Assembly (NCBI RefSeq): GCF_000014145.1
Contig: NC_008255.1
Location: 869,501 to 933,500 of the forward strand
Direction of reading: 5' to 3'
DNA: 64,000 nt
DNA from: Cytophaga hutchinsonii ATCC 33406
Lineage (GTDB): Bacteria; Bacteroidota; Bacteroidia; Cytophagales; Cytophagaceae
The notes under the pieces are model-generated. The model worked only from the letters and a program-made list of their open reading frames with translations. It did no database searches and was not told the origin of the DNA. Both the position numbers and the translations under genes were made by a program. Shown piece by piece: positions 8,861 to 60,268 of the stretch. The stretch's first letter is position 1. Each line of letters opens with the position of its first letter.

Positions 8861-11050
8861 TTACTTGATTTTTACAATACGTTCTGTATACATTAATCCA
8901 TCCTGATTTACTTTCAGTACATATACACCGTTTTCAAGTGCAACAGTAGAAATAGAACTGTTGTTTTCAATGTCTTTCGTAAATACTTTTTTACCTGTCA
9001 GATCATATAGCTCAACATGGATCATATCAGATGTAGCCAAAGATGAGGGGAATTCAATTGTTACCAGATCCTGCGTTGGGTTTGGCCTCAGCTGAATACC
9101 CGGAGCTTTTGCAGAAGATAATAAACCGGTTGTAATATTGGAATTATTAACAAACTTAGATAACAAACGGATGTAAGCTGTCTGGTAGCCTAAACTTGTT
9201 TCAGTTAACTGCCATGAATTCAGTGGCCAGTTTGTATTAAAGTCTTTGTATGATTTTTGTTTCGGCTGTTCTTTAGGCAGCGTTGTAGAGGTGCAAATAG
9301 CTGTATTCCCTGGCGATCCGCAAGATGAATAGCAGCAATCATCCCAATCATAACTGTTGTTTGCACCACCCATTAAAAAGCCCGGAGGCGGGCCGTATGT
9401 TGATGTGCCAACACGGTCCCACTTAGCACTTCCATCCGCAAACCATGTATGATACATTTCATTCACACTTTTCTCAGCACCATAACTGCTCATGTTTGTT
9501 AAGTATACCAACTGAAGCGGATTGACACCATGAATGTAATGCAGATATTCTTCCGCAGCTTTCAGATACAATTCATTGTTGCCTGCATTATCAATAGTAT
9601 ATTCATTTAATTCCCAGAATAAATTTCCATAATTTGATTTGTATTGGTTGGAACCCCAGTTATAATCACGGATGAATGCTCTGTACGGATCGAGTTCTGA
9701 AGTAAGTGCATCAGCAAAATCACGGGAATTATAAATAGCAATTTTTGTTCTGGAACGTATGTCCTGAGCAACAGTACTGCTTATGCCGGGTAGTGAAAGA
9801 TAATATAATTGAAGGCTTTGTGATTCAAGAAAATATTGACTGATACCGTTGTACCATGCTACAAGAGGCATGTCTTTATAATTTGAATTAAAATAATTCA
9901 GATACGAAGCTTCTCCCGTTAAGTCATATAAATATAAAGCAGCACCAAGCCTGGATGTTTTTCTTCCTAAATCATTTGTTTCCTGATTGCCTGCTGCTAA
10001 ACCTTTAGATCCGTTGCTGTCAGAGTTATTATTGAATGTCACATTCGGATTTGCACCTGCCCAGTTCCAGGCTGCAATCGCTTTTGTCTGCAAAGTTGTA
10101 GCAAATGTCGCATATAATACGGGATCAACTTGTTTGTATACGTTAGCAGCCAGTGCAAATGCTTGGGCACATTTTAATGTAGCATTTGTTGTAGCTGGGC
10201 CATATAAACTTTGACCCGTAGCAGAAGACGGCGGACTGGCACCTGCTGAACTCAATACAGATAAACAGGATCCATTGCTTTGCTGCATGCGCAGTAAATG
10301 CTCCAGGCCCCATTTCACTTCGTCAATGATATCCGGAATTCCATTCCCCGATTCAGGTATATTATAATCATCAGTAAAGGCAGCAGGGTTTTCCTGGTAG
10401 GCAGTTAACAATGTAATGACATAGTTTGCAGTCCATGATGTATATTTATTCAGATCACCTGCGTCATACCAGCCGCCGTGTAAATCTTTCTCCGTGGCAC
10501 TTGTTTTATTATTGTATAACTGCGCATTTTTATCCTGCAAAGGTTTAAGGTGACTTGCTGCGTCTGTCCATCCTGTTCCTGCATAAGGCTCTGTTTTTGC
10601 AAAGCTGGAGCGCTGATAATACAGCATACGCATAGCGGCTTTCAATACATCTTTATAAACTGTTGTGCTGATTACAAACTCTGCTGAACGTGCATTGTTT
10701 GTTACATCCTTCACATAATATTTACCGGGAGTTGTATAAGAAGTAAAATCAAACCACCAGGCTTTATCTCCGGATGTTGTATCCACAAAACCATTTTTCC
10801 AGGCGGCAGGTGTACCTGTGAATACAGCAGCATTGTTTGTAGCATCAATCAACGCATACGAAGTGCCCGGTGTAAAGGCATCAGCAGCGTCAAAGCCCAC
10901 ATGCGGGTCTCTGATAACGGCTACTTTTGTTGCCAGGGGCAGATAACCAAACTGGTCAACAACAATATAGGGACTGAACGACTGAGCATGGGCAAATAAG
11001 CCTGCTACAAAAAGCAATGCGGTAAATGAAAGTGTTTTTAGTTTAATCAT
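8861..11050 (-). CDS. Family 9 glycoside hydrolase (endoglucanase) with type A T9SS sorting domain
   Basis: The preferred start is the ATG at 11050, which gives MIKLKTLSFTALLFVAGLFAHAQ, a typical signal peptide; an upstream ATG at 11080 adds ten polar residues. Numbering from the longer form, an N-terminal CelD_N immunoglobulin-like domain covers about 35-135 (SPYIVVDQFGYLP) and the GH9 barrel about 140-645. GGWYDAGDLNKY (202-213) carries the catalytic base region, and WQLTETSLGY carries the likely acid Glu627. After a short linker the C-terminus has LRPNPTQDLVTIEF and ends GVYVLKVNQDG...ERIVKIK, a type A T9SS tail. It should hydrolyse beta-1,4-glucan at the cell surface or outside. No carbohydrate-binding module is seen. 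It is probably monocistronic. Confidence 0.93.
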   Translation of the reverse strand: MIKLKTLSFTALLFVAGLFAHAQSFSPYIVVDQFGYLPLATKVAVIRDPHVGFDAADAFTPGTSYALIDATNNAAVFTGTPAAWKNGFVDTTSGDKAWWFDFTSYTTPGKYYVKDVTNNARSAEFVISTTVYKDVLKAAMRMLYYQRSSFAKTEPYAGTGWTDAASHLKPLQDKNAQLYNNKTSATEKDLHGGWYDAGDLNKYTSWTANYVITLLTAYQENPAAFTDDYNIPESGNGIPDIIDEVKWGLEHLLRMQQSNGSCLSVLSSAGASPPSSATGQSLYGPATTNATLKCAQAFALAANVYKQVDPVLYATFATTLQTKAIAAWNWAGANPNVTFNNNSDSNGSKGLAAGNQETNDLGRKTSRLGAALYLYDLTGEASYLNYFNSNYKDMPLVAWYNGISQYFLESQSLQLYYLSLPGISSTVAQDIRSRTKIAIYNSRDFADALTSELDPYRAFIRDYNWGSNQYKSNYGNLFWELNEYTIDNAGNNELYLKAAEEYLHYIHGVNPLQLVYLTNMSSYGAEKSVNEMYHTWFADGSAKWDRVGTSTYGPPPGFLMGGANNSYDWDDCCYSSCGSPGNTAICTSTTLPKEQPKQKSYKDFNTNWPLNSWQLTETSLGYQTAYIRLLSKFVNNSNITTGLLSSAKAPGIQLRPNPTQDLVTIEFPSSLATSDMIHVELYDLTGKKVFTKDIENNSSISTVALENGVYVLKVNQDGLMYTERIVKIK

Positions 11051-11233
11051 AGAGGATTTTTTTAATGGACGGTTGCACATAAACCGTATTAACTTAAGTT
11101 ACGTTTTTTCATATAAATAGGATTTAAATAATTATTTATATAAGGAAAAAATTAAAAAATGGGTACAATTTCTACAGGAAAAACATTTAAAATTCCGAAT
11201 GTTGAATTGAAATCTATTTAATTAGAAAAAAAA

Positions 11234-12112
11234 CTAATAAAAATTATAGCCGCCGTTAAGTTCAACAGAGTCGGTCCAGGCCGGAAGTTTTGTAAAAAAA
11301 GGTGTATTGTATACAAAAGAAAGTAAGATGCTTTCTTTACCAATATGAATGTTTGTAGATACAACGAAACTGAAATTTTTATTATAGCGGTAGCAGCCGC
11401 CAAAAGAAATTGTTTCCTTATATTCCAGCATGCTGTAAATATTCAGATCATCATCATAGGTAGGCAAGGCCCGCCACAGCATGCCTGATTTCAGCTTTAT
11501 AAAAGGAGACAGATCAGCATGGTAAGAAAGATACGTGTTGTAATAACGCCGGTATATGATTGGCGCAACCACCGGATTTACTTCGGAGTTTAACAGCTGG
11601 CACACAGAAAATCCGGCTTCAAAATTTTTTACCTGCAAACTTAATCCGATCGATGCATCCGGTGAAATTGAGTTGCCGTTTGCCGTTGAAGACGGAGCTG
11701 TAAAGGCTGTCTGCGCAAAGCCAAAAGCGGCCCCGGCCGCAATATTCACCTGTTTACTTAATGCAATTTTATATCCGTAATTTATGTACGCTCTGGGACG
11801 GTGAATATACGGGCCATCTTTTTCATTGTAAAAATAGATTCGGATTAAATGATTGGTAGGTTTGGTGTGATTAAATACGCGTGTAAACGCAACATTAAAG
11901 GTCGATATCTTGTTTAATGCTCCAGTACGGCTCTTGTACGAAAGACTTAGATTAACCTTTACATCTTTGGGGAAATAAGAAGGTGTAACCAGATGCATGT
12001 TATTGAAATAAGCGCCGAATTGATCCGGATATACAGCAGTATTCTGCCCTGTTACAGGCAGATAGAATAACATGCTGCTTAAACCCAAACAAACAAGGCG
12101 AATCAAAGTCAT
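11234..12112 (-). CDS. PorP/SprF-family outer-membrane protein (cassette 1)
   Basis: A 292-residue protein with a signal peptide (MTLIRLVCLGLSSMLFYLPVTGQ) and then alternating strand pattern to the C-terminal aromatic (LNGGYNFY), as expected of an outer-membrane barrel. The early YPDQFGAYFNNMHLVTPSYF matches the N-terminal pattern of PorP/SprF proteins, which usually read YxxNPAFAG there; the NPA is degenerate here. The family is associated with T9SS and with surface attachment of proteins carrying type B tails. It is transcribed away from the sigma factor gene across an 87-bp gap, and a paralogue at 59363-60268 has the same position in cassette 2. Confidence 0.8.
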   Translation of the reverse strand: MTLIRLVCLGLSSMLFYLPVTGQNTAVYPDQFGAYFNNMHLVTPSYFPKDVKVNLSLSYKSRTGALNKISTFNVAFTRVFNHTKPTNHLIRIYFYNEKDGPYIHRPRAYINYGYKIALSKQVNIAAGAAFGFAQTAFTAPSSTANGNSISPDASIGLSLQVKNFEAGFSVCQLLNSEVNPVVAPIIYRRYYNTYLSYHADLSPFIKLKSGMLWRALPTYDDDLNIYSMLEYKETISFGGCYRYNKNFSFVVSTNIHIGKESILLSFVYNTPFFTKLPAWTDSVELNGGYNFY

Positions 12113-12199
12113 GAAAATACGGTCGGTTTCTTCAAAAATATATTAATTTATTTAAATTTCGTTACTTATTTATTTTGCAAATGTATATTAATTCAAGGA
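12113..12199. promoter_or_regulatory. Divergent promoter region of cassette 1
   Basis: The AT-rich 87-bp gap between PorP/SprF (-) and the sigma operon (+) must hold both promoters. Towards sigma, TATTTTGC at 12171-12178 is one base from the Bacteroidota -7 consensus TAnnTTTG, and GTTACT lies at 12161-12166. The same hexamer occurs in the equivalent gap of cassette 2. Promoter assignment is inference. Confidence 0.35.
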
Positions 12200-12778
12200 G
12201 TGAGTATTAAAGAAGAAGATATAGTCTCCCTGATTAATAAGGGAAAGGACCGGGAGGTTGTACCGCTATTGTATAAGAAGGTATACCCCTTGGTTGAACG
12301 CTATATTGTACGTAATTCCGGCAAGAAGGACGATGCGCAGGATGTCTTTCAGGATGCTCTTTTATTGTTTTATAAACAGATCATGCTTAAAACATATGAT
12401 CAGAAATACAAAGTGTTTGGTTACCTGTATAAGATCTGTATTTATAAATGGGTGAATAAGGCAAAGAAGAACAGTAAAATTGTTTTTGTTGATGAAATTG
12501 AAAAGTTTGAAGAGCCTGTTTACGATGAATTTACAGAAACGTTGATTGTACATGCAGACGAAAACATCATCCGGAAGTTATTTAATCCGATAGGTGAAAA
12601 GTGCATTGAATTGTTGACCTACACTACATACTCAAGCCTGTTGTTAGAAGATATTATGATACGCATGGATTTTAATTCGGTTAGTGCTGTTAAAATGCAG
12701 CTGAAACGCTGTAAAGAAAAACTACTGAAACAAATAGATGAAAATCCTGCTTTGATCAATCAATTAAGAAGAAAATGA
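12200..12778 (+). CDS. ECF-type RNA polymerase sigma factor (cassette 1)
   Basis: A 192-residue protein started at GTG 12200, immediately after AAGGAG; there is no in-frame ATG upstream. Region 2 is recognisable by KKDDAQDVFQDALLLFYKQI (about residues 41-60) and the following FGYLYKICIYKWVNKAKK. Region 4 at the C-terminus is less canonical (SSLLLEDIMIRMDFNSVSAVKMQLKRCKEKL). It would direct RNA polymerase to a small regulon. Its TGA overlaps the ATG of the anti-sigma gene by four bases, a common sign of matched translation. It has the same length as the paralogue at 58695-59273. Confidence 0.88.
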   Translation: MSIKEEDIVSLINKGKDREVVPLLYKKVYPLVERYIVRNSGKKDDAQDVFQDALLLFYKQIMLKTYDQKYKVFGYLYKICIYKWVNKAKKNSKIVFVDEIEKFEEPVYDEFTETLIVHADENIIRKLFNPIGEKCIELLTYTTYSSLLLEDIMIRMDFNSVSAVKMQLKRCKEKLLKQIDENPALINQLRRK

Positions 12779-13869
12779 GCTTTGATGCTGAAACATATTA
12801 CAAGATTGAAGCTTATTTAAACGGAGAGCTGAACCAGGCAGATGTAACTGCTTTTGAACAGGAACTATCCGCAAATGCTGCTTTAAAAGCTGAAGTTGAA
12901 AAACACGCAATGGCTAATGCCTTGATTGTGGAACAACGTTTGCTTTCAGTAAAAAATATTCTGCAGGAAGAAAAAACAAAAGATTCCCGTTCAATAAAAA
13001 AATATTTATTACTGGCTCTGGCAGCAGTTATTATAAGTGTTGGTGTTGCTGTTTTTATACGCAGCAGTAATATATCTGAAACAAAGCAACGTGAGGCCGG
13101 GGATACAGCAAATCCGGCACAGATAAACGGACAGGAAAAAAATGCTGTAACTCCTGTAACGTCTTTAGAGCGTACCGAACAGCACACAGCTGTTTCATCG
13201 GATAATGGATTTCATAAACAGTCCATTCAGCAGATCGAGCAGCAGCGGAATCTGCTTGAACGTACGGTACATACTGTGGATACAGCAACTTCAGCTGTTC
13301 CTGAAAAAAAGATTGCGCAACCTGTTGATTCAAAAGAAAAAGAAATTATACAGCATACTACAAAGGCTGATCCGTGTGCAAACGTAAAAATTCAGGCACT
13401 GATAAAAACGACCCCTACCTGTGCACATACCGCCAACGGTAATATTCTGGTTCAGAATATTCAAGGCGGAACAAAACCATATACGGTAACTTTTTCAGCA
13501 AAGTCAACAGACTGGATCCGGAATGGCGAACTGGCGAAAGGGACGTATCAGGCCGTTGTAACAGACGCAAATAATTGTGTTCAGGAGTTTTCAAACATCC
13601 GCATTGAAGAAAAGGAATGTGCCATTGATTATTCATTTAATCCGTTTATAGGGGAGAAATGGCAGATTGATAAGTACCATTCAGACGGGCATCTGGAAAT
13701 TTTCAATAAAGGCGGGGTGCTGTATTACCAGACCACAATAGAGTCGCAAACAGAAGCAGAATGGAATGGATCTGGTTCGGGTAATCAAATACTGCCGGGT
13801 TATTATATCTTTGTACTAAAATATTCGGACGGAACAGTCAAAAGAGGTTCTGTTACAATTGTTCAATAA
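12775..13869 (+). CDS. Transmembrane anti-sigma factor with SprB repeat and type B-like C-terminal domain (cassette 1)
   Basis: A 364-residue protein without signal peptide. Residues 1-70 form a cytoplasmic helical part beginning YKIEAYLNGELNQADVTAFE, which resembles the N-terminus of Bacteroidota anti-sigma factors. One membrane helix lies at about 77-95, followed by a Gln/Thr/Lys-rich spacer to about 200. A SprB-type repeat follows at about 204-280 (TTPTCAHTANGNILVQNIQG, then GGTKPYTVTF and GTYQAVVTDANNC). Residues 285-364 match the strand order of the CHU_C type B T9SS tail: IFNKGGVLYY, EWNGSGSGNQILPGYYIFVL, RGSVTIVQ. The TPNGDG motif of secreted tails is absent. The domain should face the periplasm. 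The stop overlaps the next ATG (TAATG). No zinc-finger motif is seen. Confidence 0.82.
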   Translation: MSFDAETYYKIEAYLNGELNQADVTAFEQELSANAALKAEVEKHAMANALIVEQRLLSVKNILQEEKTKDSRSIKKYLLLALAAVIISVGVAVFIRSSNISETKQREAGDTANPAQINGQEKNAVTPVTSLERTEQHTAVSSDNGFHKQSIQQIEQQRNLLERTVHTVDTATSAVPEKKIAQPVDSKEKEIIQHTTKADPCANVKIQALIKTTPTCAHTANGNILVQNIQGGTKPYTVTFSAKSTDWIRNGELAKGTYQAVVTDANNCVQEFSNIRIEEKECAIDYSFNPFIGEKWQIDKYHSDGHLEIFNKGGVLYYQTTIESQTEAEWNGSGSGNQILPGYYIFVLKYSDGTVKRGSVTIVQ

Positions 13870-15476
13870 TGAAAAAGGTAATCATACATATTGTATTTTT
13901 TCTGACTTCCATAACAGGATATGGGCAGCAGACAGTATCAATACCGGATGCTGCTTTTTTAGCATTTTTAAAAAACAATTTTCCACAAACCATAAATACA
14001 TCAGACCAGCTTGTGACCAGCATTGCAGCGCAGGTTACAGGAAATATTTCCTGCGGCAATTCAGGCATCACAAATCTGGAGGGAATTCAATATTTTTCTA
14101 AAGTTACCAAGATCAGTGCCATTAATAATAACATTGTTTCTATTCCGTCCTTATTGCCCATGACGAATCTTGAGACGGTGCATATTTACAATAATAAATT
14201 AGCTACAATGCCCGATTTTGCAGGCATGCAGAAATTAAAAACGGTATTGCTGTATGAAAATGAATTAACACAAATGCCCTTGTTTGGCAATAATCCCATC
14301 ATTGAAGAAATCATTATTTCAAAAAATAAATTAACCAGTCTGTCGCCCTTGTCTGTTGTGCCTTCGCTGTTAAAATTAGATGTTGGTGAAAACGCATTGA
14401 CGCAACTTCCGGATCTTTCCCTCAATGTAAATCTAGAAGAGTTAATCTGCTGGTCCAATAAACTTACCGCACTGCCATCCTTAAAAAATCTGACAAAACT
14501 GAAGCGGTTAAATGCCGGTACAAATAAATTAACCCAGACACCTGATTTGTCGGCCAATACAGCTCTTACAATCGTTGCCCTGGATAATAATTTCCTGAAG
14601 GATATACCAAATATTCTGGACTATAACTTAACAACCGTGAAGTTATACAATAACTATTTTACGTTTGAAGATTTGTATCCGTACACAACACGGGCGAATT
14701 TTTCAACTGCGTTTGATTGCACACCGATGCTGCGGATACCCATTGCAGATACAATTGATGCATATTATAGTCAGTCAGTAGATATTCATACAAACATTGA
14801 TAAAACGTTAAGTAATGTAACGTATGAATGGTTTGAAGGCAGTGCCTCTGTGGCAGTAGGTGATGCCGCGGTTATAACTTCCGCAAACGGAACGGGCGTA
14901 TCCAAACGTTACCTGTATGCTAAAATTAAACACCCATCCATTCCGAATCTCACATTAACAACGGATTCAATCCTGGTTCGCTTTAATCCGTGTCCGGTGT
15001 CAGCAGACATCACATACACTGCTTCTAAAAAAGACTGCGGCAATGCAGGAGCTGTGAACATAGACGTACACGGGTATGTTCCGCCAGAAACAACCTATAT
15101 CTTAACAAGCACATCATTTGGCTCCAACGAATATTATCAGTCGGGCAATATTACTGGCCTGGTTGATACTGCCTATCAATTACAGATTGAATTTATACCA
15201 GGCTGTGTGGTAGATTACCTGCCATTGATTGAGATGCCTTATGTAGATTGTAAAGAAGTGTTCATGACCCCGAATGGAGATGGCGACATGGATACCTATT
15301 TTATTCCCGGTTCAGGCAATGCCATTATTTATGATAAGAACGGGAGGGAAGTAAAAAAAGTAAAATTACCCTACGAATGGAATGGCTATGGCCCGAATGG
15401 ACTGGTACAGGCAGGGTATTACATCATTGTGGTAAATGGCGGCAAAGACCGGATCTACATCAGTGTACTGTATTGA
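13869..15476 (+). CDS. Leucine-rich-repeat surface protein with type B (CHU_C) T9SS tail (cassette 1)
   Basis: A 535-residue protein with a signal peptide (MKKVIIHIVFFLTSITGYGQQ). A block of about nine leucine-rich repeats runs from about residue 55 to 280, with periodic LxxLxxxxNxLTxLP text. An Ig-like stretch follows (about 305-375, YEWFEGSASVAVGDAAVI) and then a Cys-containing beta domain. Residues about 460-535 are a type B sorting domain: FMTPNGDGDMDTYFIP, IIYDKNGREV, EWNGYGPNGLVQAGYYIIVV. It should be exported by T9SS and held on the surface, probably through PorP/SprF. It is the last gene of the sigma/anti-sigma operon, overlapping by one base, and its paralogue is at 55953-57584. Confidence 0.85.
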   Translation: MKKVIIHIVFFLTSITGYGQQTVSIPDAAFLAFLKNNFPQTINTSDQLVTSIAAQVTGNISCGNSGITNLEGIQYFSKVTKISAINNNIVSIPSLLPMTNLETVHIYNNKLATMPDFAGMQKLKTVLLYENELTQMPLFGNNPIIEEIIISKNKLTSLSPLSVVPSLLKLDVGENALTQLPDLSLNVNLEELICWSNKLTALPSLKNLTKLKRLNAGTNKLTQTPDLSANTALTIVALDNNFLKDIPNILDYNLTTVKLYNNYFTFEDLYPYTTRANFSTAFDCTPMLRIPIADTIDAYYSQSVDIHTNIDKTLSNVTYEWFEGSASVAVGDAAVITSANGTGVSKRYLYAKIKHPSIPNLTLTTDSILVRFNPCPVSADITYTASKKDCGNAGAVNIDVHGYVPPETTYILTSTSFGSNEYYQSGNITGLVDTAYQLQIEFIPGCVVDYLPLIEMPYVDCKEVFMTPNGDGDMDTYFIPGSGNAIIYDKNGREVKKVKLPYEWNGYGPNGLVQAGYYIIVVNGGKDRIYISVLY

Positions 15477-30630: not shown

Positions 30631-32016
30631 TTAAAATTTTTGAATTTTTTGCAAGGATACCTGGTTATCCGTTGTTTGTATTTTTAATAGATACATGCCA
30701 TTAGGTTGAGATGACAGATCGAGTAGCTGTGATTCGTCAGTAATGTATTTTTGCTGTAGTATCTGTCCAACGCTATTCATGATCGTTATATGGATATTTT
30801 GAGCGGCCTGATTTTTAATTTTTATAGTAAGCTCTCCCGCTGTTGGATTTGGATATACAACTATATTTTCAGAAGAAATAGCTTCATGCACTTTCAACGA
30901 CAGATTGCAATCTACCAAAACAGGCAAATTGGTATTTGTAGTAGTACCATTCCCTAATTGACCAGAATAGTTATAGCCCCATGTCCAAAGTGAGCCATCG
31001 GTTTTAATTGCAAGTAGAAAAGAATAGTTTATTGAAATGTGTTGCCATTGATTGTCTGTTCCAATCTGAATGGGTAAAGTACTATTGGTAGTGGTACCAT
31101 TCCCAAACTGACCGGAATTGTTATCTCCCCAAACCCATAAAGTGCCATCCGATTTTAGCGCAAAAGATGTATTTCCATCTGAAGAAATAGTTTTCCAATT
31201 ATTGTCTGTTCCGATTTGTACCGGACTTAAACGATCCGTTGTTGTTCCATCGCCTAATACTCCGGCATAATTATATCCCCATGCCCAAAGAGAACCATCT
31301 GTTTTTATTGCAAATGTATTTGACCCGGCGGCATAAACAGATTTCCAATTCGTAGCAGTTCCTACTTTGGTAGGAGCATTTTTGGTAGTTGTTGTTCCAA
31401 TTCCTAATCGACCGTTATTGTTGCTGCCCCAAGCCCACAAACTGCCATCTGTTTTAATGGCCATTGTGTGAAAGGCTCCCACGGAAACGTAAGCCCAGTC
31501 TGTTGCTGTGCCAATTTGAATGAACGTTTTTACATTCGAACCCGTAGTTCCCTTACCTAACTGTCCTTCAAAATTACGTCCACAGCCCCATAACGTTCCG
31601 TTATTTTTAATAGCAAATGTATTGTATTGCCCAGCTGAAACAGCCATCCAGTCATTATCAACACCAATTTGAGTTGGAACAAGCATTTTTGTTAATGATC
31701 CATTACCTAATTGCCCTTCGCTGTTCCAGCCCCACGTCCAGATGCTGCCATCTTTTTTTAGTCCGATGCAATGTGAGTTGCCTGAAGATATTTTCAGCCA
31801 GCCTTTTGCTGTGTTGAATTGTGACGGGATAGATTTGTTGTCAGTTGTATTATCACCGAGTTGGCCCGAGCTATTACTTCCCCAGCTCCAAAGCGTACTA
31901 TCAGCTTTCATTGCAATGACAAAACTAGAACCAGCCTCTATTTGAAGCCAGCAAGGCTGAGCATAAAGCGTCAGGTTTGAAAAAATAACACATAGTAAAA
32001 TGAAATAGTTACGCAT
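30631..32016 (-). CDS. Secreted RCC1-repeat propeller protein with type A T9SS tail
   Basis: A 461-residue protein with signal peptide [20 protein letters not shown]. Seven repeats of about 50 residues run from about 22 to 375, each with the RCC1 text GSLWxWGxNxxGQLGxGTT and a W..IS.G..F..A.K.DG lead-in (for example [20 protein letters not shown]). They form a seven-bladed propeller. The C-terminus [17 protein letters not shown] through [20 protein letters not shown] is a type A sorting domain. RCC1 repeats are best known as protein-interaction propellers in eukaryotes; here the product must be extracellular. Target unknown. Confidence 0.9.
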
Positions 32017-46673: not shown

Positions 46674-47002
46674 CGGCGGAGATGTGATTTGCAACTATAT
46701 AAATAATATGATAGTTGTCATTCTATTTATTCCATTAAAAAGAATTATTATTGATTTTTTACCTCAGTTAGTGTGCTTGTTTAAATATAATTATTCCGGT
46801 GTAGGTTTTTTGATAAAAAGATTTGATATTGGCACTGTCAGTTGATTTGAAGGGAAATACATTTATTTTAATGAAACCCGTATTGTTTTTATCACAGAGC
46901 TCATTTAGAAGCATAATCATTTAAATTCATAAATGAGTTGTTGTTAAGTGAAGGACATATATTTTGTATAAGCTTTTTTACAACGTTTACAATATTTTAG
47001 GT
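46674..47002. other. Intergenic region upstream of the nuclease gene
   Basis: 329 bp of strongly AT-rich sequence with no reading frame or strong hairpin recognised. It presumably holds the promoter of the 47.0-50.7 kb gene set. Confidence 0.4.
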
Positions 47003-47533
47003 ATGGGAGGAAATGCAGGAATCAGAGGTTATTTAATACAAACGATTATTTGTGTATTAGATACGTTTGAAACTGATAATCTATGGAGATCAGTAACGCT
47101 CGAGCCGTTAGACGAATCGGAAAAGGTAGACATCAGGTGGAAATATGTCGATGATGCTGTAAAACTGTGTCAAGTAAAATCCTCCGAAAACATAATTCGG
47201 CATTCTGCAGCAAAAAAATGGTGTGAAGAACTTGAAACTCATTCTCCAAATGCATCTGAATATGAATTAATTGTAATTGGAAATGTTGACGAAAAACTCT
47301 CAACGGCTAAGGATATTGGTAATGTAAAAATTGGAGAAATTAAACCTTTGAATGTTCAAGTTTTAATTGATCAAGCATCGACAAAAATCGACAAATACTA
47401 TGAAAATAAGAACAAGCCGAGGATTTCATCGCAGGTTAGAGAACTTATTGTAAAAGCATTAACCTTGGAATTTGGCACAAGTTCATCATTGGAAAAGAAA
47501 TATCTAGGGCGGATTTTGACACAAAACTTTTAG
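47003..47533 (+). CDS. PD-(D/E)XK nuclease domain protein (Cap4/DUF4297-like), N-terminal part
   Basis: Starting at ATG 47003 (MGGNAGIRGYLIQTIICVLDTF) the frame ends after 176 residues. The pattern G-x-x-G-Y-x-x-Q at the start, then VTLEPLDESEKVDIRWKY and KLCQVKSS near residues 31-62 gives the Glu...Asp...Gln-x-Lys arrangement of dsDNA nuclease domains of the Cap4/DUF4297 type. After about residue 155 the natural continuation lies in the -1 frame, which is open from 47440 to 49689 and reads GKEISRADFDTKLLEWISAVEN just before this frame's stop. The gene is therefore probably the front of one large protein interrupted by a frameshift. It is very AT-rich, suggesting transfer. Confidence 0.65.
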   Translation: MGGNAGIRGYLIQTIICVLDTFETDNLWRSVTLEPLDESEKVDIRWKYVDDAVKLCQVKSSENIIRHSAAKKWCEELETHSPNASEYELIVIGNVDEKLSTAKDIGNVKIGEIKPLNVQVLIDQASTKIDKYYENKNKPRISSQVRELIVKALTLEFGTSSSLEKKYLGRILTQNF

Positions 47534-47787
47534 AATGGATTAGTGCAGTTGAAAATCAAATTGACACCAACCCTTTTGCTTCTTTAGCTCCACCAACGGA
47601 AAGTCAAAACGTTCCTATTAATCACAGGATAGTTAAGAAAATATTAGAACTTATCGGTTGGCATCAGTTTGGAGAAAATCATACAATAGAGCGCTTCAAC
47701 GAAAAAACAGAAGGAAATGAAATACATTCTGTCAATTTTCTCGGAGATTTTGAAAGTAAACTAAAAGAAGATTCAGGAGATTTAATA

Positions 47788-49689
47788 ATGATTTCGTCAC
47801 TTCATTCACTTAAATATCCTGAATCTTCTAAAATAGAAATATCTAAATACTTAAACGATACCGACATTGTATATTCAGACTTGGAAGAAAAGAAGAAAAT
47901 TCCAGTAAAACGATTTGAATCTACTGATGTTTACAGCCTTTTATTTTGGCTTTCAACTAATAACAGTGAGGTTTTAACAGATTTTATTCACTATACAAAA
48001 GAAAACTATAAACGGAATTTACTGAAAGAAGATATCAACTATTTTCTGATAGATAACAATAAAGCCAATTTTTTAATTAGCAGTATTACAACTGCAAAAA
48101 ATTATAGATCAGACGTTCCTGTTAAGTTTGCATATCCCATAACTGAAGCCAATCAAAGCCCTAAACGCATTGGAGAAAGAGGGTTAAAGCTTCCTCCTCA
48201 ATTTATTAATTCCTCTGTACTTCCTATCACTAAGGAAAGTAAATCTAAAATAAGTTTTCTTCTTTTTTGCTCTGACCCATTTTCTGCAGAAGCATTAAAG
48301 AAACTTATTTGGCTAACAATTAGCCTTACAAGTGGTTATGGAAATGAATACCTCCTTTACTTTCCTGATTATAATGAAGAAGAAAATAAAAATGATGCTC
48401 TGGAAGTTATCCGTTCCTTTAATGAAGAATTATTAGACGAGAAGGTTAGAGTGTTAAAATACAACAGCATTGATACAGATGCATTAGATTCATTATCGAA
48501 TACAAAGGTAATCACCAGTAAAAATGAAACATACGAGGACGATAATCAGCCATCCTTAGTTAATTCTCAGCACCTAAACGAAGCTTTTGTCAATATACTT
48601 CCTTATGGAGATATTTTAAAACCTTTTCTTAAAACAGATGCAATTACAGCAAATGATATTAAATTCTTTCTTGCCAAAAAGGGGATTTTTACAAAAAAAG
48701 CAGACATCAATAAATTAATTGACTTAATGACTTCATTACTTTTTAGCCCGAAAGAACTTGAAGACTTTAAATCATACATTGATGTTAAAGGTAAAACTGT
48801 TAATAGCTCGGATGCATTTTTCAACATTAAACAAAATGAAACATTAGAATCTGTATTTAATAAAGTGAAAATAAACACAGATAATTTGACAGATGGTCTA
48901 AATGTCAAAATCATAAATTCTGATAGTTTAAAATTTGAAGCCAGTCCTTCAAAGGATGAATTCAAATTAACATTGATAACGGAAACAAAAGACCCGACAA
49001 GTAGCTTGTTGATTAATACTAAACCAGGGAAAGCAGAAGTTGTAATTAAGAAAAAGGACAATCAGTTAGTAGTAGTAACCGAAAATACAATCAATAAAGC
49101 GGACAAATATATTGTTAACCGCTTAGTAAAGCTTGTTGAGGAAGAGTTTAAAAGAATAGATTTTATTGAAGAGGAAAAAATAAAAGTACTGTTCAAGAAT
49201 TTTAGCTCAAATACAGAAAGGGTAAATTTCTTACTTAGCTTTAGTAATATATCTTCTTCTGTAATGTTTCACGAGGCGGATATTCAATCAATAAAATTCA
49301 AGTTTGATGACAATACTGAAATTCCTGAACTCTACCGTGATAAAGTTGATAAAGATTTGGTTATAAACTTTGAAGGAAAGGGGTTACAAACTCTTACTGA
49401 ATTAAGTGAGCAAAATGCAAAGGGTTCTATTTTTTTAGAAGAAATGAAAGTATTGTATAAATTCCGTTTTTTAAATATAAAAAATGGCTTGTATAAGGTT
49501 ACTTTCAATTTTTCAAATGCACTTAAAAACAAACCTGAATTTGACGGAGTATTCAAATCCGCTCCATATTTGATAAAAACAAATTCCGTAAAATCTCTAT
49601 CAAGTATTGAAAATCTTGAAAAGGAATTAGGAAAGGAAATTGAGAATCTTAAACTTGAAAAGTTGAAATTATTTAATATAATAAAATGA
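47788..49689 (+). CDS. Large protein, probable C-terminal part of the nuclease gene; GAPS4b-like domain possible
   Basis: From ATG 47788 the protein is 633 residues, but the same frame is open from 47440 without a good start, adding about 116 codons (LLEWISAVENQIDTNPFASL and on), so the true product is probably continuous with the upstream nuclease domain. Around residues 265-325 the text ILPYGDILKPFLKTDAITAN...LAKKGIFTKK...LLFSPKELEDFKSY resembles, from memory, the N-terminal domain of GAPS4b from a phage-defence system; this needs a profile search. The C-terminal half is beta-rich with a helical end (ENLEKELGKEIENLKLEK). Its TGA overlaps the next ATG by four bases. Confidence 0.55.
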   Translation: MISSLHSLKYPESSKIEISKYLNDTDIVYSDLEEKKKIPVKRFESTDVYSLLFWLSTNNSEVLTDFIHYTKENYKRNLLKEDINYFLIDNNKANFLISSITTAKNYRSDVPVKFAYPITEANQSPKRIGERGLKLPPQFINSSVLPITKESKSKISFLLFCSDPFSAEALKKLIWLTISLTSGYGNEYLLYFPDYNEEENKNDALEVIRSFNEELLDEKVRVLKYNSIDTDALDSLSNTKVITSKNETYEDDNQPSLVNSQHLNEAFVNILPYGDILKPFLKTDAITANDIKFFLAKKGIFTKKADINKLIDLMTSLLFSPKELEDFKSYIDVKGKTVNSSDAFFNIKQNETLESVFNKVKINTDNLTDGLNVKIINSDSLKFEASPSKDEFKLTLITETKDPTSSLLINTKPGKAEVVIKKKDNQLVVVTENTINKADKYIVNRLVKLVEEEFKRIDFIEEEKIKVLFKNFSSNTERVNFLLSFSNISSSVMFHEADIQSIKFKFDDNTEIPELYRDKVDKDLVINFEGKGLQTLTELSEQNAKGSIFLEEMKVLYKFRFLNIKNGLYKVTFNFSNALKNKPEFDGVFKSAPYLIKTNSVKSLSSIENLEKELGKEIENLKLEKLKLFNIIK

Positions 49690-50714: not shown

Positions 50715-50724
50715 CTCAGTCTCA

Positions 50725-50767
50725 GAATTTGCAATTCCAAAGCCAAATAAAAAACGATTTACAATCC
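50725..50767. repeat. REP-like hairpin doublet, copy 2
   Basis: GAATTTGCAATTC and GATTTACAATC, each an imperfect palindrome, lie on either side of the linker CAAAGCCAAATAAAAAAC. The arrangement matches 42489-42543. Confidence 0.55.
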
Positions 50768-50820
50768 CTTATAATAATTCTGATCTCAGCATGTCTTCTG
50801 GGAAAATTAAATAATTATAA

Positions 50821-51462
50821 ATGACATTTGACACAAATACAATCACAGCATTTCTTACAGGTTCGGTTGTAACATTGATTATAAGAGAGATTTTTAATCA
50901 AATAAATAGAAAGGTTGACTTTAATAGAGATTTAAAGAAAATAACTTATCAGCGGAAATTAGAGAAGGCCGAAAGTGCAGTTGCTTACTATTGGACGTAT
51001 CTCAACAAGGCAATTGAAATGAAAAAGTCTATGGAGACAATTCATAAGGCTCTGAATGAAATTGATGAAACAAAATTAGACATTAGAATTATAACAGAAA
51101 CCCTAAACAAAAATAGTAAAACACTCGATCTCTTATCTGGTGACAAATATTTTGACATTAACGGGATTCACTTGTATTTCGATTTAGAAGATGAAAAATC
51201 CTGGAGTGAGGAAGACCTTGGTAAACTATGCGATTGCCTTGCAGAAATGAATTATCGGGGTAATGATGTTGAATTTTGGACATCATTATACAACTCTCAT
51301 TTAGACAGCAACGAGCAGTTAGCAGACCAGTATTGGAGTAAAATGAAAGAATTTTTACCCGATTACTTGAATTCACTTCAAAAATTTATTGATCTCTTAG
51401 AGAAGAACAGACAAGCGACATATTTAATTTTTAAGAAAATAAAAAAACAGATTGAAAATTAG
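50821..51462 (+). CDS. Hypothetical protein with N-terminal hydrophobic helix and coiled coil
   Basis: A 213-residue protein. A short hydrophobic segment at about 9-25 (ITAFLTGSVVTLIIREIF) could be a membrane anchor, and the rest is helical with coiled-coil text (KLEKAESAVAYYWTYLNKAI, MKKSMETIHKALNEIDETK) and a basic C-terminal end (LIFKKIKKQIEN). No family is recognised. It lies about 105 bp downstream of the nucleoid-associated gene behind a REP-like element, so it may or may not belong to the same unit. Confidence 0.55.
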   Translation: MTFDTNTITAFLTGSVVTLIIREIFNQINRKVDFNRDLKKITYQRKLEKAESAVAYYWTYLNKAIEMKKSMETIHKALNEIDETKLDIRIITETLNKNSKTLDLLSGDKYFDINGIHLYFDLEDEKSWSEEDLGKLCDCLAEMNYRGNDVEFWTSLYNSHLDSNEQLADQYWSKMKEFLPDYLNSLQKFIDLLEKNRQATYLIFKKIKKQIEN

Positions 51463-51489
51463 AGCTAAGAGTCAAGACTTCCCCTCTTC

Positions 51490-52240: not shown

Positions 52241-52245
52241 ACATA

Positions 52246-55952: not shown

Positions 55953-57584
55953 TTATCGAACTACTGTAATGTTCGTTATTTTTTTATTGTTTACGATAAT
56001 CACATAATAGCCGGCATCTGCTAATGTGCCGTCAGCCTTGGTGCCATACCATACAGCCGGTGCCGTCAATTGCAGGATTGTTTTACCTCCCATATCAACA
56101 ATTTTAGCCGGACCGCTCTGTTCAATAAAATAAGAATTCATATGCGCATCTCCGTTTGGCGTAATAACCGGATCGCACGCTTTTGGTTTTGGAATGGTCT
56201 GTACAGAATCTATACCGCAGTTGTTGGCATCGCGCACCGTAAAGGTATATTTGCCCGGAGGCACCTGTGTAAAATCTCCTGTAGAGCTGCGTATGGTATC
56301 GGTATTGTAAAACGGAATTAATGCGTAGGTGTACGGTGCCGTACCGCCATTCAATACAACAGCTGTTTCCACGGTTGCCCCGCCACTGCACTCGTTTGAG
56401 GAGACATCAAATGAGAATGCATTCAGATCAATACAGTCCGTTACCTCTATGTTCCAGATTCTATGCGTTAAGGTTAATAAAGGCAAGTTCGGATTTTTAA
56501 TACTTACATAATATTTCCCTTTGTCGGTAACCTGCGTTTTATTTATAGAGAACGCCCGTGTTGTTATGCCTGAAAGCGCTGCATTTTTATACCAGGTATA
56601 GGTGTTGCTGCTTACGCCGGCATCTTCGGTAATGGATAAAGAAAGCGGTTGCTGTGAACGAATTGTATTCTGTGTGTAGGTGCCGAGGCTGTCCTGCGGA
56701 CTGTAGCTGAAATCTGTCAGTGTTGTTACCGTTTTTAAAGGCAGCAGATCTTCAAAGGTTAAATTATTTTTTTCAACTTCAACACTGTTGAGGTTAGGTT
56801 TGTTTGTTAAAGTTGGTAACGAACGGAGTTTGTTTGAAAAAGCAAACAGGCCGGTTAATGTTGTGTTGTCAGATAATGCTGAAAGATCAGTTATTGAATT
56901 TTCCCAGCAATATAATTTAGTAAGTTTTGTTAATTGGGCCAGGCCCGTGATCTGTGAAATATTTGTCTGGTGTACGTGCAGTTCAAGCAGCTGTACATTT
57001 GGAGAGAAGTCCGGTAAGCTTGTAAATGGATTATTCCCGATGATCAGATACTTTAAATTCACAAGTGTTGAAATATTCGGTAAGCTGGTGAGTTTATTAT
57101 TTGTAAGGAAAAGATTATTCAGGTTTACCAGATTGGTAAGAGAAGGCAAACTGGTAAGAGCATTTGTTGTAGCCTGTATCTCAACCAGATTTGTTTGATT
57201 GCTTAAGTCGGGCAATTGAGTAAGCCTGTTAAAGTTTACATACAGGTATTTCAATTGTGTGAGGGACGATATATTCGGAAGTGCCGTTAAATTGTTAAAG
57301 GACGCATCTATCTTGAATACAGAAGTGAAATATTGAATGCCATCTAAATTTGAAATGTTTGCACCTGTCAGAATGAGATCATTGGTAAACATACCGGCAG
57401 CAGTAATATTTAACTGGTTGCCTGTCATAACCCATGGATAACTGGATTGTAATTTGTTTTTGAAATTAACATCCTGAATCACATAGGTTCCCTGCGCAGA
57501 AGCAACCGTTATGGATATAAGCATCACCAGAATGCTTGCCAGCAGGCGTGACCGTAAGGATAATATGTTTGAAATTGTTTTCAA
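55953..57584 (-). CDS. Leucine-rich-repeat surface protein with type B T9SS tail (cassette 2)
   Basis: About 543 residues. No ATG is available: TTG at 57584, two bases after the anti-sigma stop, gives MKTISNILSLRSRLLASILVMLISITVASAQ, a good signal peptide; TTG at 57596, overlapping the anti-sigma gene by 11 bases, is the alternative. About ten leucine-rich repeats run from residue about 60 to 290 (LKYLYVNFNRLTQLPDLSNQ and similar). An Ig-like stretch and a SprB-like repeat (NECSGGATVETAVVLNGGTAP) follow, and the type B tail is CDPVITPNGDAHMNSYFIEQ through AGYYVIIVNNKKITNITVVR. Like its cassette 1 paralogue it should be surface-exposed. Confidence 0.83.
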   Translation of the reverse strand: MKTISNILSLRSRLLASILVMLISITVASAQGTYVIQDVNFKNKLQSSYPWVMTGNQLNITAAGMFTNDLILTGANISNLDGIQYFTSVFKIDASFNNLTALPNISSLTQLKYLYVNFNRLTQLPDLSNQTNLVEIQATTNALTSLPSLTNLVNLNNLFLTNNKLTSLPNISTLVNLKYLIIGNNPFTSLPDFSPNVQLLELHVHQTNISQITGLAQLTKLTKLYCWENSITDLSALSDNTTLTGLFAFSNKLRSLPTLTNKPNLNSVEVEKNNLTFEDLLPLKTVTTLTDFSYSPQDSLGTYTQNTIRSQQPLSLSITEDAGVSSNTYTWYKNAALSGITTRAFSINKTQVTDKGKYYVSIKNPNLPLLTLTHRIWNIEVTDCIDLNAFSFDVSSNECSGGATVETAVVLNGGTAPYTYALIPFYNTDTIRSSTGDFTQVPPGKYTFTVRDANNCGIDSVQTIPKPKACDPVITPNGDAHMNSYFIEQSGPAKIVDMGGKTILQLTAPAVWYGTKADGTLADAGYYVIIVNNKKITNITVVR

Positions 57585-57585
57585 T

Positions 57586-58698
57586 TTAGCGTACAATAGT
57601 TATTTGTCCGTTTTCTTTTTCTCCTGAAGTATATTCAAGGATATAAATATACAAACCTGCTGTTAAATATTCACCTTGCTGGCTTAATCCCTGCCATTCA
57701 AAGCTTCCTTCCATGGTATTTGTTTTATATACCTGTTTGCCGGCCATATTTAAGATAGTTAATACATAGCTCTCATCCTCTTTAGCGGTGATGGTGCAGA
57801 CCTGTCCTTTATCCGGCGCAAACACATAAGAAGTTTTGCGGCAGTTTTTTTCCGTTACTTCAGAAGAGAAGTTTTTTGTACAGCCGTTGGCGTCTGTAAT
57901 GTTAATGTTATAAGTGCCTGCCGGTAAATAGGCATAATGCTCTTTAGTGCCCGCATCTGTTGATTTATTAAAGGAGATTTTATAAGGCTTGGTACCACCG
58001 CTGATTTGATTGATCGGAATGGTGATACTTCCATTGCTTGCATCGTCACAGCTTGGACTTGAAGTGATAACTGCTTTAAGGGTTATCTGATCGCACGGAT
58101 TAACCGCATCGGTTGTTTTTGAAACCGGTGTATGTGCGATTGTTTCAGCAGGTTTTATAACGGGAATTTGTGTAAAGGTATGGTCCGTTGTGCTTTTTTC
58201 TAGTGGTGTCTGAAGGGAAATTTTTTCATCAGGCGATGCCGTTCGTACATCTGTTTGTGTGTGCAGCTGGTTTGTTTTTTCCGTTGTTGCCGGCTGTGTT
58301 ATTTTTTCACTGGCAGCAGACTGTTCCGCTGGCTTGTTTTTTATTACCGAAGGTGTTTGCAGGGCAGGTGCAGTTACGGATGTTGTATCTTCCTCTGTCG
58401 AAAGCGTATACATACCTACTACACCGATACTTACAATACCCAAAATAAGGCCTGTTAATCCCCAGGTACGCGTGTTTTTTGAAGCATCTATGTCTGCTAT
58501 ATCATTACTCATCTGGTTTCTGAGCGCATCGAAAGTAGCGCCGACAACAACCTCATTTGTGAGCTGTACAAAAGACACTTCTTCAGCTAAAGAAGAATCT
58601 GTTTGAAGTCGCTGCTCAAAAGCAGCGAGCTCTTCTCCCGTCAACGTTCCGTTGAGATAGTTGTCAATTAACTGATATGTCTCTAATTCAGGTCTCAA
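57586..58698 (-). CDS. Transmembrane anti-sigma factor with SprB repeat and type B-like C-terminal domain (cassette 2)
   Basis: A 370-residue protein with the same architecture as the cassette 1 protein. The cytoplasmic start is LETYQLIDNYLNGTLTGEELAAFEQRL. One membrane helix lies at about 79-99 (WGLTGLILGIVSIGVVGMYT), followed by a Thr/Gln/Pro/Lys-rich spacer to about 200. A SprB-type repeat spans about 210-285 (SSPSCDDASNGSITIPINQI, GGTKPYKISF, GTYNINITDANGC). The C-terminal domain at about 288-370 reads TILNMAGKQVYKT, FEWQGLSQQGEYLTAGLYIY and GQITIVR. As in the paralogue, TPNGDG is absent. The start overlaps the sigma gene by four bases. Confidence 0.82.
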   Translation of the reverse strand: MRPELETYQLIDNYLNGTLTGEELAAFEQRLQTDSSLAEEVSFVQLTNEVVVGATFDALRNQMSNDIADIDASKNTRTWGLTGLILGIVSIGVVGMYTLSTEEDTTSVTAPALQTPSVIKNKPAEQSAASEKITQPATTEKTNQLHTQTDVRTASPDEKISLQTPLEKSTTDHTFTQIPVIKPAETIAHTPVSKTTDAVNPCDQITLKAVITSSPSCDDASNGSITIPINQISGGTKPYKISFNKSTDAGTKEHYAYLPAGTYNINITDANGCTKNFSSEVTEKNCRKTSYVFAPDKGQVCTITAKEDESYVLTILNMAGKQVYKTNTMEGSFEWQGLSQQGEYLTAGLYIYILEYTSGEKENGQITIVR

Positions 58699-59273
58699 TT
58701 TCGTAATAAATCAACTAATGAAGGATTGCTTTTCACCAGTTTGGTTAAATATTGTTTGCATCTGTAATGATTCGTCTTTGCAACATCTTCGCTGCTGTAA
58801 CCCATTAACTCTTTGATTTCCTTCATCGAACGCTTTTCGTAGATCACGTAAGTTAATATATTCCGGCATTTTTCATCCAATAAATTGAATACCGTTTTCA
58901 TTGCAGCGCTTTTCTCTTTTTGTATCAATGCATCCAGGTGATTGGTGTCTGAAGCAATAACAGCGTAATCATCCGGCGAATCGTATTTGGTAAATTTTTT
59001 ATCCCGGCGGACTTTATCGATCCACAAATTCCGCGCTACGGAGTATATAAAGGCATCGATGGAATAGGCTTCATTGAATTTATTTAACCGGATCTGATTG
59101 AATAAAACAATTACCGCGTCCTGGAAAATATCGTTTGCGTCATCCTTGCTGCCATTGTTTTTAAGAATGTACTGTCTTACTTTCTTCAAACTGATGTCAT
59201 AGAGATACTCTAATGCAATATTATTTGCACCGCTGCGGATACTTTCAATGATGACTTTTTCCTTTTCGCTCAC
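58695..59273 (-). CDS. ECF-type RNA polymerase sigma factor (cassette 2)
   Basis: A 192-residue protein started at GTG 59273 (MSEKEKVIIESIRSGANNIA), the same length and start codon type as the cassette 1 factor. Region 2 reads SKDDANDIFQDAVIVLFNQI and FIYSVARNLWIDKVRRDKKF; region 4 reads RSMKEIKELMGYSSEDVAKTNHYRCKQYLTKL. It is the first gene of the sigma - anti-sigma - LRR operon and is divergent from the PorP/SprF gene. Confidence 0.9.
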   Translation of the reverse strand: MSEKEKVIIESIRSGANNIALEYLYDISLKKVRQYILKNNGSKDDANDIFQDAVIVLFNQIRLNKFNEAYSIDAFIYSVARNLWIDKVRRDKKFTKYDSPDDYAVIASDTNHLDALIQKEKSAAMKTVFNLLDEKCRNILTYVIYEKRSMKEIKELMGYSSEDVAKTNHYRCKQYLTKLVKSNPSLVDLLRN

Positions 59274-59362
59274 GACTAATTATATTTCTTACGATTTGAT
59301 GGGTAAAAGGTAAACAGTTTTTATTTTTAAAAGGCACAATTATAAAAAAATAGTAACTTGGT
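59274..59362. promoter_or_regulatory. Divergent promoter region of cassette 2
   Basis: An 89-bp AT-rich gap between sigma (-) and PorP/SprF (+), the same size as the cassette 1 gap. On the sigma strand it contains GTTACT (59352-59357), as does the cassette 1 gap, and TACCTTTT, one base from the Bacteroidota -7 consensus. Promoter assignment is inference. Confidence 0.35.
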
Positions 59363-60268
59363 GTGATTTTATTGAACAAAAATGTGAGAAGAATTACCTC
59401 GTTTGGTTTCTGTATGCTTTTTTTGATGGATTTTTCCATGCAAACCCATGCACAAACGGGAGATATTACGCCTGTTGTATTTGATCAGTTTTTTCAGAAT
59501 TATTACCTCATCAATCCCGCAAGTTCAGACAGTACCGGTAAGATACAGGTCAACATCGGAAACAGATCACTGATCGGTTTGTTTGATGGTGTAAACCGCT
59601 TGTATGTGGATGGCAATGTACGGATCAATCACCGTACCGCTATGCAGTACAGCAGACTCGGTGCCCTGGTGATTGCGTATAACGATGGTGCTTTTATTAA
59701 CAGAACGCGTGCATACCTCAGGTATTCCTGGTCAACATCCATCAGTGAACGTGCTTCCATCTCGGCAGGTATTTCAGCAGGTATGGTGAAGTATACGTTT
59801 CTTGCTTCACAGGCTGGCGGCGGCGGTTCTTCAACTTCTTTTGACGGCAATGCAGGTTTGTGGTACATACGGCCTAAATTAAAAATCGGTATATCGTATC
59901 AACAATTCACCCGTTCGGAATTGACACCCGTGAATCAAACATTTCTGCTTACTCCGTACATAAATGTAAATGCGGTCTATGCTTCTTATCTCAGTGCACA
60001 TGTATTGTTAACAACGCATGTATTCTACAGGTATGAATCAGGTTCTGTGTTTGATATACAGGCGGCACCTGTTTTTTTATTCAACGATCTGTTTGAAGCA
60101 GGTATTAATCTGCGTTACAAAAGAGGTGTTGCAATTTTATTTGGTTTGAAATCAATCCATGTCGGTACAGGAAATATCCGCTTTATGGGTTCGTTTATGT
60201 TAAGCACCCGGAAGCTGGCCAATACACTTGATAACGCATTTGAACTATCGGCAGGCTATTCGTTTTAA
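59363..60268 (+). CDS. PorP/SprF-family outer-membrane protein (cassette 2)
   Basis: A 301-residue reading from GTG 59363. TTG 59372 would give MNKNVRRITSFGFCMLFLMDFSMQTHAQ, a cleaner signal peptide. After the signal the text FDQFFQNYYLINPASSDSTGK carries the NPA motif typical of PorP/SprF proteins. The rest alternates in strand fashion to the C-terminal aromatic (LSAGYSF), as in outer-membrane barrels. The family is linked to T9SS and surface display of type B tail proteins, one of which is encoded in the divergent operon. Confidence 0.85.
   Translation: MILLNKNVRRITSFGFCMLFLMDFSMQTHAQTGDITPVVFDQFFQNYYLINPASSDSTGKIQVNIGNRSLIGLFDGVNRLYVDGNVRINHRTAMQYSRLGALVIAYNDGAFINRTRAYLRYSWSTSISERASISAGISAGMVKYTFLASQAGGGGSSTSFDGNAGLWYIRPKLKIGISYQQFTRSELTPVNQTFLLTPYINVNAVYASYLSAHVLLTTHVFYRYESGSVFDIQAAPVFLFNDLFEAGINLRYKRGVAILFGLKSIHVGTGNIRFMGSFMLSTRKLANTLDNAFELSAGYSF

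Follow-up and report, generated by a model that had tools for sequence, protein, structure and literature searches.

A putative sigma/anti-sigma surface-signalling cassette using type IX secretion system parts in Cytophaga hutchinsonii

A window of 64,000 nucleotides from the genome of Cytophaga hutchinsonii ATCC 33406 (one contig, 4,433,218 bp) was analysed; coordinates refer to this window unless stated otherwise. In cassette 1, a gene for a PorP/SprF-family outer-membrane barrel (11234..12112, minus strand; Pfam PorP_SprF E 2.1e-45, 155.8 bits, cut-off 22.3) is divergent to a gene for an ECF-type sigma factor of 192 aa (12200..12778, plus strand). Sigma-70 region 2 was detected in this sigma factor above the cut-off (E 8.4e-6) and in all five sigma paralogues. 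Upstream of the sigma gene lies the promoter-like element TTACTTATTTATTTTGCAAATGTA (12162..12185, plus strand), which was read as the sigma gene's own promoter. The sigma gene is followed by a putative anti-sigma gene (12775..13869, plus strand, 364 aa), the start of which overlaps the end of the sigma gene (12200-12778) by 4 bp, and whose product carries SprB-like and CHU_C-like C-terminal domains. The next gene (13869..15476, plus strand) encodes a leucine-rich repeat (LRR) protein (LRR_4 E 1.2e-17), the candidate surface receptor carried by PorP. It is composed of a signal peptide, the repeats, an Ig-like region, a four-cysteine region and a short type B C-terminal domain (CTD) of the type IX secretion system (T9SS) with the motif MTPNGDGD; its CHU_C match (E 0.0022) was under the cut-off, and the protein was aligned with its four paralogues. 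Directly downstream of the PorP gene, a GH9 cellulase with a type A T9SS tail is encoded (8861..11080, minus strand; Glyco_hydro_9 E 3.8e-50, Por_Secre_tail E 5.9e-11). It is a possible member of the unit; a promoter match of its own was not found.

The cassette 1 barrel (292 aa) is not a TonB-dependent transducer, and the Pfam scan gave no extra signalling domain. The barrel's last 25 residues contain no cysteine, and a PorE-like partner gene was not found near it. Cassette 2 (55953-60268) comprises an LRR type B protein (55953..57596, minus strand), an anti-sigma factor of 370 aa with an SprB-like domain and a CHU_C tail (57586..58698, minus strand), an ECF-type sigma factor (58695..59273, minus strand), the promoter-like element TTACCTTTTACCCATCAAATCGTA (59290..59313, minus strand) and a PorP/SprF-family barrel (59363..60268, plus strand), which was recovered in the whole-genome PorP search at genome positions 928968-929759 with E 2.2e-46. 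The C. hutchinsonii genome contains five such cassettes of PorP, ECF sigma factor, anti-sigma factor and LRR type B protein, and exactly five full-length anti-sigma factors of the CHU_C-tailed kind.

The protein encoded by 12775..13869 is predicted to inhibit the sigma factor, as its reading frame overlaps the ECF sigma gene and lies directly 3' of it. The NCBIfam antisigma profile matched residues 12-99 weakly (E 0.019) and, at E <=0.01, 11 of 45 homologues. A relative of the N-terminal domain among solved structures was not found by sequence. A first-pass annotation of the same DNA had named an anti-sigma-like N-terminal region, for which the profile support was thus weak. The AlphaFold2 model of the whole protein showed helices within residues 5-67, a helix at 74-97 and two beta domains. 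The single membrane helix was assigned to residues ~77-97 (13003..13065, plus strand), with a hydropathy of 2.79 over 77-95, and hydropathy gave no other candidate for a membrane segment; the annotated helix "near residue 86" was accordingly kept and its span corrected. A Sec signal peptide was not detected; an N-terminal hydrophobic stretch is absent and the only hydrophobic segment is the internal helix. Both the annotated lack of a signal peptide and the inner-membrane topology, with one membrane segment and a short cytoplasmic N-terminus, were thereby borne out. Topology was uniform among the homologues, with ~78 cytoplasmic residues, one helix, a linker, and then the SprB and CHU_C domains.

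The helix is followed by a disordered periplasmic linker (residues ~97-200; 13063..13374, plus strand; pLDDT ~25-50). Model confidence was low over residues 73-196 (pLDDT <50), and the part past the helix was taken as disordered. Up to the first cysteine the linker measures 105 aa and is enriched in polar and small residues. Its length is kept among the 45 homologues (median 105 aa, sd 11), ranging from 91 to 131 aa in all rows except one with a mis-assigned membrane segment, and its sequence is not conserved; the earlier term "low-complexity spacer" therefore under-describes it. Residues 201-282 (13375..13620, plus strand) form a four-cysteine SprB-like domain, the cysteines of which (201, 216, 268 and 282) are conserved across almost all 45 homologues. 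An SprB repeat had been annotated here; the domain is present, and the profile match itself (residues 214-237, E 0.0045) stayed under the Pfam cut-off. Among the 45 homologues, Pfam matches were obtained for CHU_C in 39 (at E 0.01) and for SprB in 22. The same architecture of a four-cysteine region plus CHU_C is found in the C-terminal region of the LRR adhesin.

The C-terminal tail (residues 284-364; 13624..13866, plus strand) is CHU_C-like, that is, similar to a T9SS type B CTD, and has no TPNGDG motif. Pfam CHU_C matched residues 294-361 with E 3e-6 and 27.7 bits, just past the cut-off of 27, as the first-pass annotation had read from the letters; TIGR04131 reached 20.1 bits, under its cut-off of 35. 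The same annotation had proposed folding the tail alone as a check. When the last 84 residues were folded alone with AlphaFold2, a seven-stranded domain was obtained (pLDDT 84), which is the described T9SS CTD fold (PMC10994853). Structure comparison aligned it to PorU (Z 8.9, 75 residues, 2.1 A), PorZ (Z 8.3, 78 residues, 2.5 A), the translocon-bound NucA CTD (Z 8.2, 68 residues, 2.1 A), the mirolase CTD (Z 7.9) and the RemA CTD (Z 7.5). Unrelated beta-sandwiches matched similarly, among them MalQ (Z 9.2) and an usher middle domain (Z 8.0), and the FlgD_ig profile matched 31 of the 45 homologues. Because unrelated sandwiches reach such scores, the fold alone is not decisive, and the assignment is decided by sequence profile and gene neighbourhood. 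A Foldseek search with the tail alone placed PorZ and RemZ entries within the top ten, at E no better than 3e-3; with the whole model, T9SS CTD entries were absent near the top of the ranking because of the disordered linker. By eye, the tail retains most CHU_C strands and motifs B-E. Motif A ([ST]P.G.[GA]) was found in none of the 45 anti-sigma tails, in agreement with the annotated absence of TPNGDG; its strict pattern was present in 20 of 45 adhesin tails. Secretion of SprB is abolished by mutating any one of the five CTD motifs (PMC12618676).

The distribution of the architecture was assessed with a profile built from the five C. hutchinsonii anti-sigma factors and searched against 291 genomes of the same order. 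Full-length relatives came from several genera within the same family as well as from some further families, the named matches being Cytophaga aurantiaca, an uncultured Cytophaga and Sporocytophaga. A phylum-wide search, at its sensitivity, found no full-length member beyond the order; its matches outside the order were SprB/CHU_C proteins or anti-sigma factors with other tails and were rejected. From 19 genomes, 45 cassettes were taken, the presence of PorP not being a selection criterion. Sigma factor, anti-sigma factor and PorP occurred together in 45/45, with the sigma gene adjacent to the anti-sigma gene (-67 to +27 bp) in every case, and a CHU_C or LRR substrate was present in nearly all. 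Anti-sigma factors that share the N-terminal family and have a C-terminal part other than CHU_C served as control set. A PorP gene lay within 5 kb of 56 of 57 CHU_C-tailed anti-sigma factors versus 1 of 36 relatives with other tails (Fisher p 3e-23, uncorrected for shared ancestry). The sole CHU_C-tailed exception is located on a 3.7-kb contig. This difference argues that the joining of anti-sigma factor and CHU_C is not a chance fusion, and the gene association strongly implies a functional link between CHU_C tail and PorP.

The single other-tailed relative with a PorP gene, at locus L191, has lost CHU_C and kept the SprB domain; at L125 and L133, CHU_C is present and SprB absent. Judged by these three gene arrangements, neither module is indispensable. 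In all three loci a PorE-like gene stands beside PorP, and the main cassette class is without one, save that at two loci an OmpA-like ORF lies no more than 5 kb from the anti-sigma gene. The L191 cassette (L191:208-6626) encodes a 246-aa anti-sigma factor ending after the SprB-like domain, an RCC1-repeat protein with a canonical CHU_C, a canonical PorP and a PorE-like protein; by eye, neighbouring genes resemble those for GDSL rhamnogalacturonan acetylesterases. In a Sporocytophaga cassette (L138:7878-8748) the PorP gene is split into two overlapping frames, which may be a real frameshift or an assembly error. Among the N-terminal relatives, those at L196, L199, L213, L214, L216, L218 and L219 have a periplasmic GNSGGP-like motif reminiscent, by eye, of a trypsin-like serine protease. 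Four relatives of 640-750 aa (L179:5748-7844, L180:781-2712, L197:5041-7245 and L205:3245-5488) have large periplasmic domains.

The intergenic regions between the PorP and sigma genes were searched for common elements. Upstream of the sigma gene, the motif T[TG]AC[TC]...[TC]GT[AC] with a spacing of exactly 20 was found in 22 of 42 regions; shuffled regions gave a mean of 0.2 and a maximum of 3. Both cassettes of the window have the pattern. At L126, L134 and L136, where the substrate gene is located on the PorP side, a promoter site also faces that side. At L126 (L126:9514-13654) two surface proteins are encoded there, one an LRR protein ending in a type A tail, the other a type B-tailed protein of 392 aa, with an extra promoter site toward them. 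From its position the element looks autoregulatory, and we infer that it is used by the cassette's sigma factor.

Further copies were then sought outside the cassettes' own promoters. One-mismatch matches are about as frequent genome-wide as control matches and were used only where the downstream gene was conserved in a second species, where its function was fitting or where sites were clustered. The exact cassette-1 promoter occurs at exactly two sites in each of three Cytophaga genomes, and the reversed-pattern control gave 0. The second site in C. hutchinsonii stands before a gene for a 1313-aa type B CTD protein, which is followed by a PorP gene (L247:519-5784; genome 1979018-1984283), and the second site in C. 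aurantiaca before a 71%-identical orthologue of this 1313-aa protein. Outside its own cassette, the C. hutchinsonii cassette-1 promoter was found before this adhesin-type gene alone and before no enzyme gene. For cassette 2, a site was found before a CE4 polysaccharide deacetylase in C. hutchinsonii and C. aurantiaca, and C. hutchinsonii has another before a CE15 glucuronoyl esterase. For cassette 3, the gene behind the site encodes, in either species, a PL11 rhamnogalacturonan lyase adjoining the cassette; within 13 kb C. aurantiaca has four such sites, one of them before a pectinesterase. In the neighbourhood of 23 cassettes, 12 further sites, other than the cassettes' own, were located upstream of ORFs (letter-shuffled motifs: 0.34, maximum 3). 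According to Pfam, the targets include GH43, GH10 (three), GH5, pectate lyase (two) and PL11. Two additional sites, slightly farther from the gene, precede GH18 chitinases. Most of the predicted target enzymes carry type A T9SS tails. Two VPS10/BNR target proteins resemble GH74 by eye. The product of L104:9588-12623, pectate lyase-like by eye, had no Pfam enzyme match and was not counted. Judging by promoter positions, the genes that the cassette sigma factors appear to control encode secreted enzymes of polysaccharide degradation, an output that the first-pass annotation missed.

These data are best accommodated if the cassettes are polysaccharide-responsive surface-signalling systems built on T9SS parts, with PorP and the LRR protein as receptor and the CHU_C tail of the anti-sigma factor coupled to PorP; we assign this reading a probability of roughly 0.58. 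The LRR protein would be exported by the T9SS, and the PorP barrel of its own cassette would keep it on the cell surface as the polysaccharide receptor, PorP and LRR protein together standing in for a TonB-dependent transducer. The inner-membrane anti-sigma factor would retain the ECF sigma factor in the cytoplasm. Its disordered linker of ~105 residues would span the periplasm, so that the SprB-CHU_C end could reach PorP, and the SprB-like and CHU_C domains would touch the PorP side of the receptor complex. This contact would take the role that the C-terminal domain of FecR or FoxR plays with the signalling domain of a TonB-dependent transducer. As to direction and trigger of release, we infer that binding of the polysaccharide would alter the contact between anti-sigma factor and PorP and that the anti-sigma factor would be inactivated, probably by regulated proteolysis. 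The freed sigma factor would then transcribe its own operon and the genes for secreted enzymes against the same polymer.

The coupling to PorP is in line with the known carriers of type B proteins. SprF/PorP shuttles take type B proteins to the cell surface and connect them with a periplasmic partner, which is GldK in gliding or PorE in static anchoring (PMC12618676, PMC9143113, PMC12635249). As the known shuttles have such a partner and the main cassettes are mostly without a PorE-like gene, the anti-sigma factor is the obvious substitute. Points that weigh against the preferred reading are the extracellular position of the known CTD site on carriers (PMC10994853), which a periplasmic tail would not readily meet, the want of any special likeness between an anti-sigma tail and the tail of its own adhesin, the absence of one or the other module at L125, L133 and L191, and the position of the second cassette-1 promoter site in C. 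hutchinsonii before an adhesin-type gene.

The first-pass annotation had held that an inner-membrane protein cannot take the T9SS route, which is plausible, and that the tail docks on the barrel from the periplasm and competes with the adhesin tail; as a whole its interpretation is partly supported. Spelled out, the tail would sit on PorP, or on translocon-docked PorP, in the absence of adhesin export, an arriving adhesin tail would displace it, and the sigma factor would read export status. The CHU_C fold and the PorP association (56/57) are compatible with such competition, and the cassette-1 promoter, which is also found before another type B protein/PorP pair, fits a control of adhesin supply. 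However, in other cassettes the promoter recurs in front of genes for polysaccharide-degrading enzymes; this indicates substrate sensing, and a cassette that senses substrate is thus more probable than one that monitors only adhesin export. Nor were the anti-sigma tails closer to their own adhesin tail than to the tails of other adhesins (within-genome permutation p = 0.28). The missing motif A also speaks against this model, given that each of the five motifs is needed for SprB secretion (PMC12618676). In solved structures the site for the CTD on its carriers is formed by extracellular loops, inside the translocon pore (PMC10994853); since the site is extracellular, a periplasmic tail could occupy it only while PorP is docked in SprA, and the model requires this docking. 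We therefore consider competition unlikely.

Alternatively, the CHU_C tail may be a working T9SS signal, in which case the SprB and CHU_C domains would be exported tail-first onto surface PorP beside the LRR receptor, while the N-terminus would stay in the inner membrane and the linker would run through SprA and the periplasm. One protein would then read the outside polysaccharide directly at one end and hold the sigma factor at the other. By inspection, the tail does keep motifs B-E and the greater part of the CHU_C strands, and the linker, held at ~105 aa despite its free sequence, would by arithmetic stretch to ~31 nm or more, enough for periplasm and outer membrane. This arrangement is nevertheless quite improbable, as SprB secretion depends on every motif (PMC12618676) and motif A is missing in 45/45 tails, and as a tethered substrate would block a translocon permanently.

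It is very doubtful that the tail binds the C-terminal region of the LRR protein instead of PorP, with the four-cysteine and CHU_C likeness of the two proteins reflecting a like-with-like packing in the periplasm before export. Apart from this common region, the proposal draws on the partial distance correlation of the tail, which peaked at 0.27-0.29 with the adhesin and was low, at 0.09, with PorP, yet these correlations are weak and the mirror-tree test had no working positive control: sigma factor and anti-sigma N-terminus, the pair expected to interact, reached only 0.12, against 0.09 for tail and PorP, and the co-evolution test is thus uninformative. Finally, a generic Ig-like sensor or stabilising domain drawn from the CHU_C pool, without a T9SS role and linked to PorP by co-inheritance of the cassette, would explain the FlgD_ig matches (31/45) and the Z scores of 8-9 for MalQ and usher domains, but it is hardly credible when members of the N-terminal family that have other tails are near PorP in only 1 of 36 cases and both parts are kept over many genera despite deep divergence.

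The preferred reading, receptor signalling through PorP, was compared with described systems. In FecA-FecR-FecI and FoxA-FoxR-FoxI (PMC11637429), as in the cassettes, an ECF sigma factor is combined with a single-span anti-sigma factor, a periplasmic C-terminal domain matched to the neighbouring barrel and a substrate-induced output, which is predicted in the present case; the signalling domain of FoxA binds the C-terminal domain of FoxR (PMC11637429). In contrast to FecR/FoxR signalling, the cassette barrel is a PorP/SprF T9SS shuttle without signalling domain, the anti-sigma factor ends in a CHU_C/SprB pair and not in a FecR-type domain, and an LRR protein exported by the T9SS comes as an additional component. 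The nearest functional parallel is SigI/RsgI of Clostridium thermocellum (PMC6056542, PMC4711584, PMC12203970). There, too, a genome encodes multiple paralogous sigma/anti-sigma pairs, every pair having a stringent promoter of its own and being tied to polysaccharide-degrading enzymes. C. thermocellum is Gram-positive, however, and RsgI itself bears the carbohydrate-sensing module, whereas the cassettes, owing to the outer membrane in between, would have the surface part as a protein of its own, placed on PorP.

With the type B CTD/PorP-SprF pairs (PMC12618676, PMC9143113, PMC12635249) the cassettes have in common a type B substrate with its cognate PorP barrel and a tail of CHU_C fold; they differ by the added sigma and anti-sigma factors and, mostly, by the lack of a PorE-like gene, suggesting signalling as a third use of the pair. 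In Porphyromonas gingivalis, PorA-PorXY-SigP (PMC7712824) is a further case in which a CTD-bearing protein affects a sigma factor, but this proceeds by a two-component system and the CTD protein is not the anti-sigma factor. For C. hutchinsonii itself, an ECF sigma factor that controls cellulose utilisation, with CHU_1276 as outer-membrane target, has been described (Wang et al. 2019, as reported in PMC12016534 and PMC10766802); it agrees with the cassettes in species, in the use of an ECF sigma factor and in the response to a polysaccharide, which is predicted for the cassettes. A literature search, with most subscription journals outside its reach, retrieved no published anti-sigma factor with a CHU_C tail. 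Going by gene content and predicted regulon, the cassette would represent a previously undescribed form of surface signalling by sigma and anti-sigma factors, built from T9SS components.

C. hutchinsonii is a model for how solid polymers are sensed by Bacteroidota that digest them in the absence of classical SusCD loci. If the proposed mechanism is true, the cassettes provide these Bacteroidota with substrate-specific sensors, the predicted targets being pectin, xylan, chitin and others. Signalling would then join gliding and static anchoring among the uses of type B CTD/PorP pairs, and a secretion tag would be reusable as the sensor end of a transcriptional switch.

Two other regions of the window were noted. 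At 30631-32016 (minus strand) an RCC1-type repeat protein is encoded, the C-terminus of which looks like a T9SS type A tail by eye; a relation to the cassettes was not seen. Between conserved genes, the region 46964-52800 contains a cluster of genes of unclear function, which is possibly an inserted island or a defence locus.
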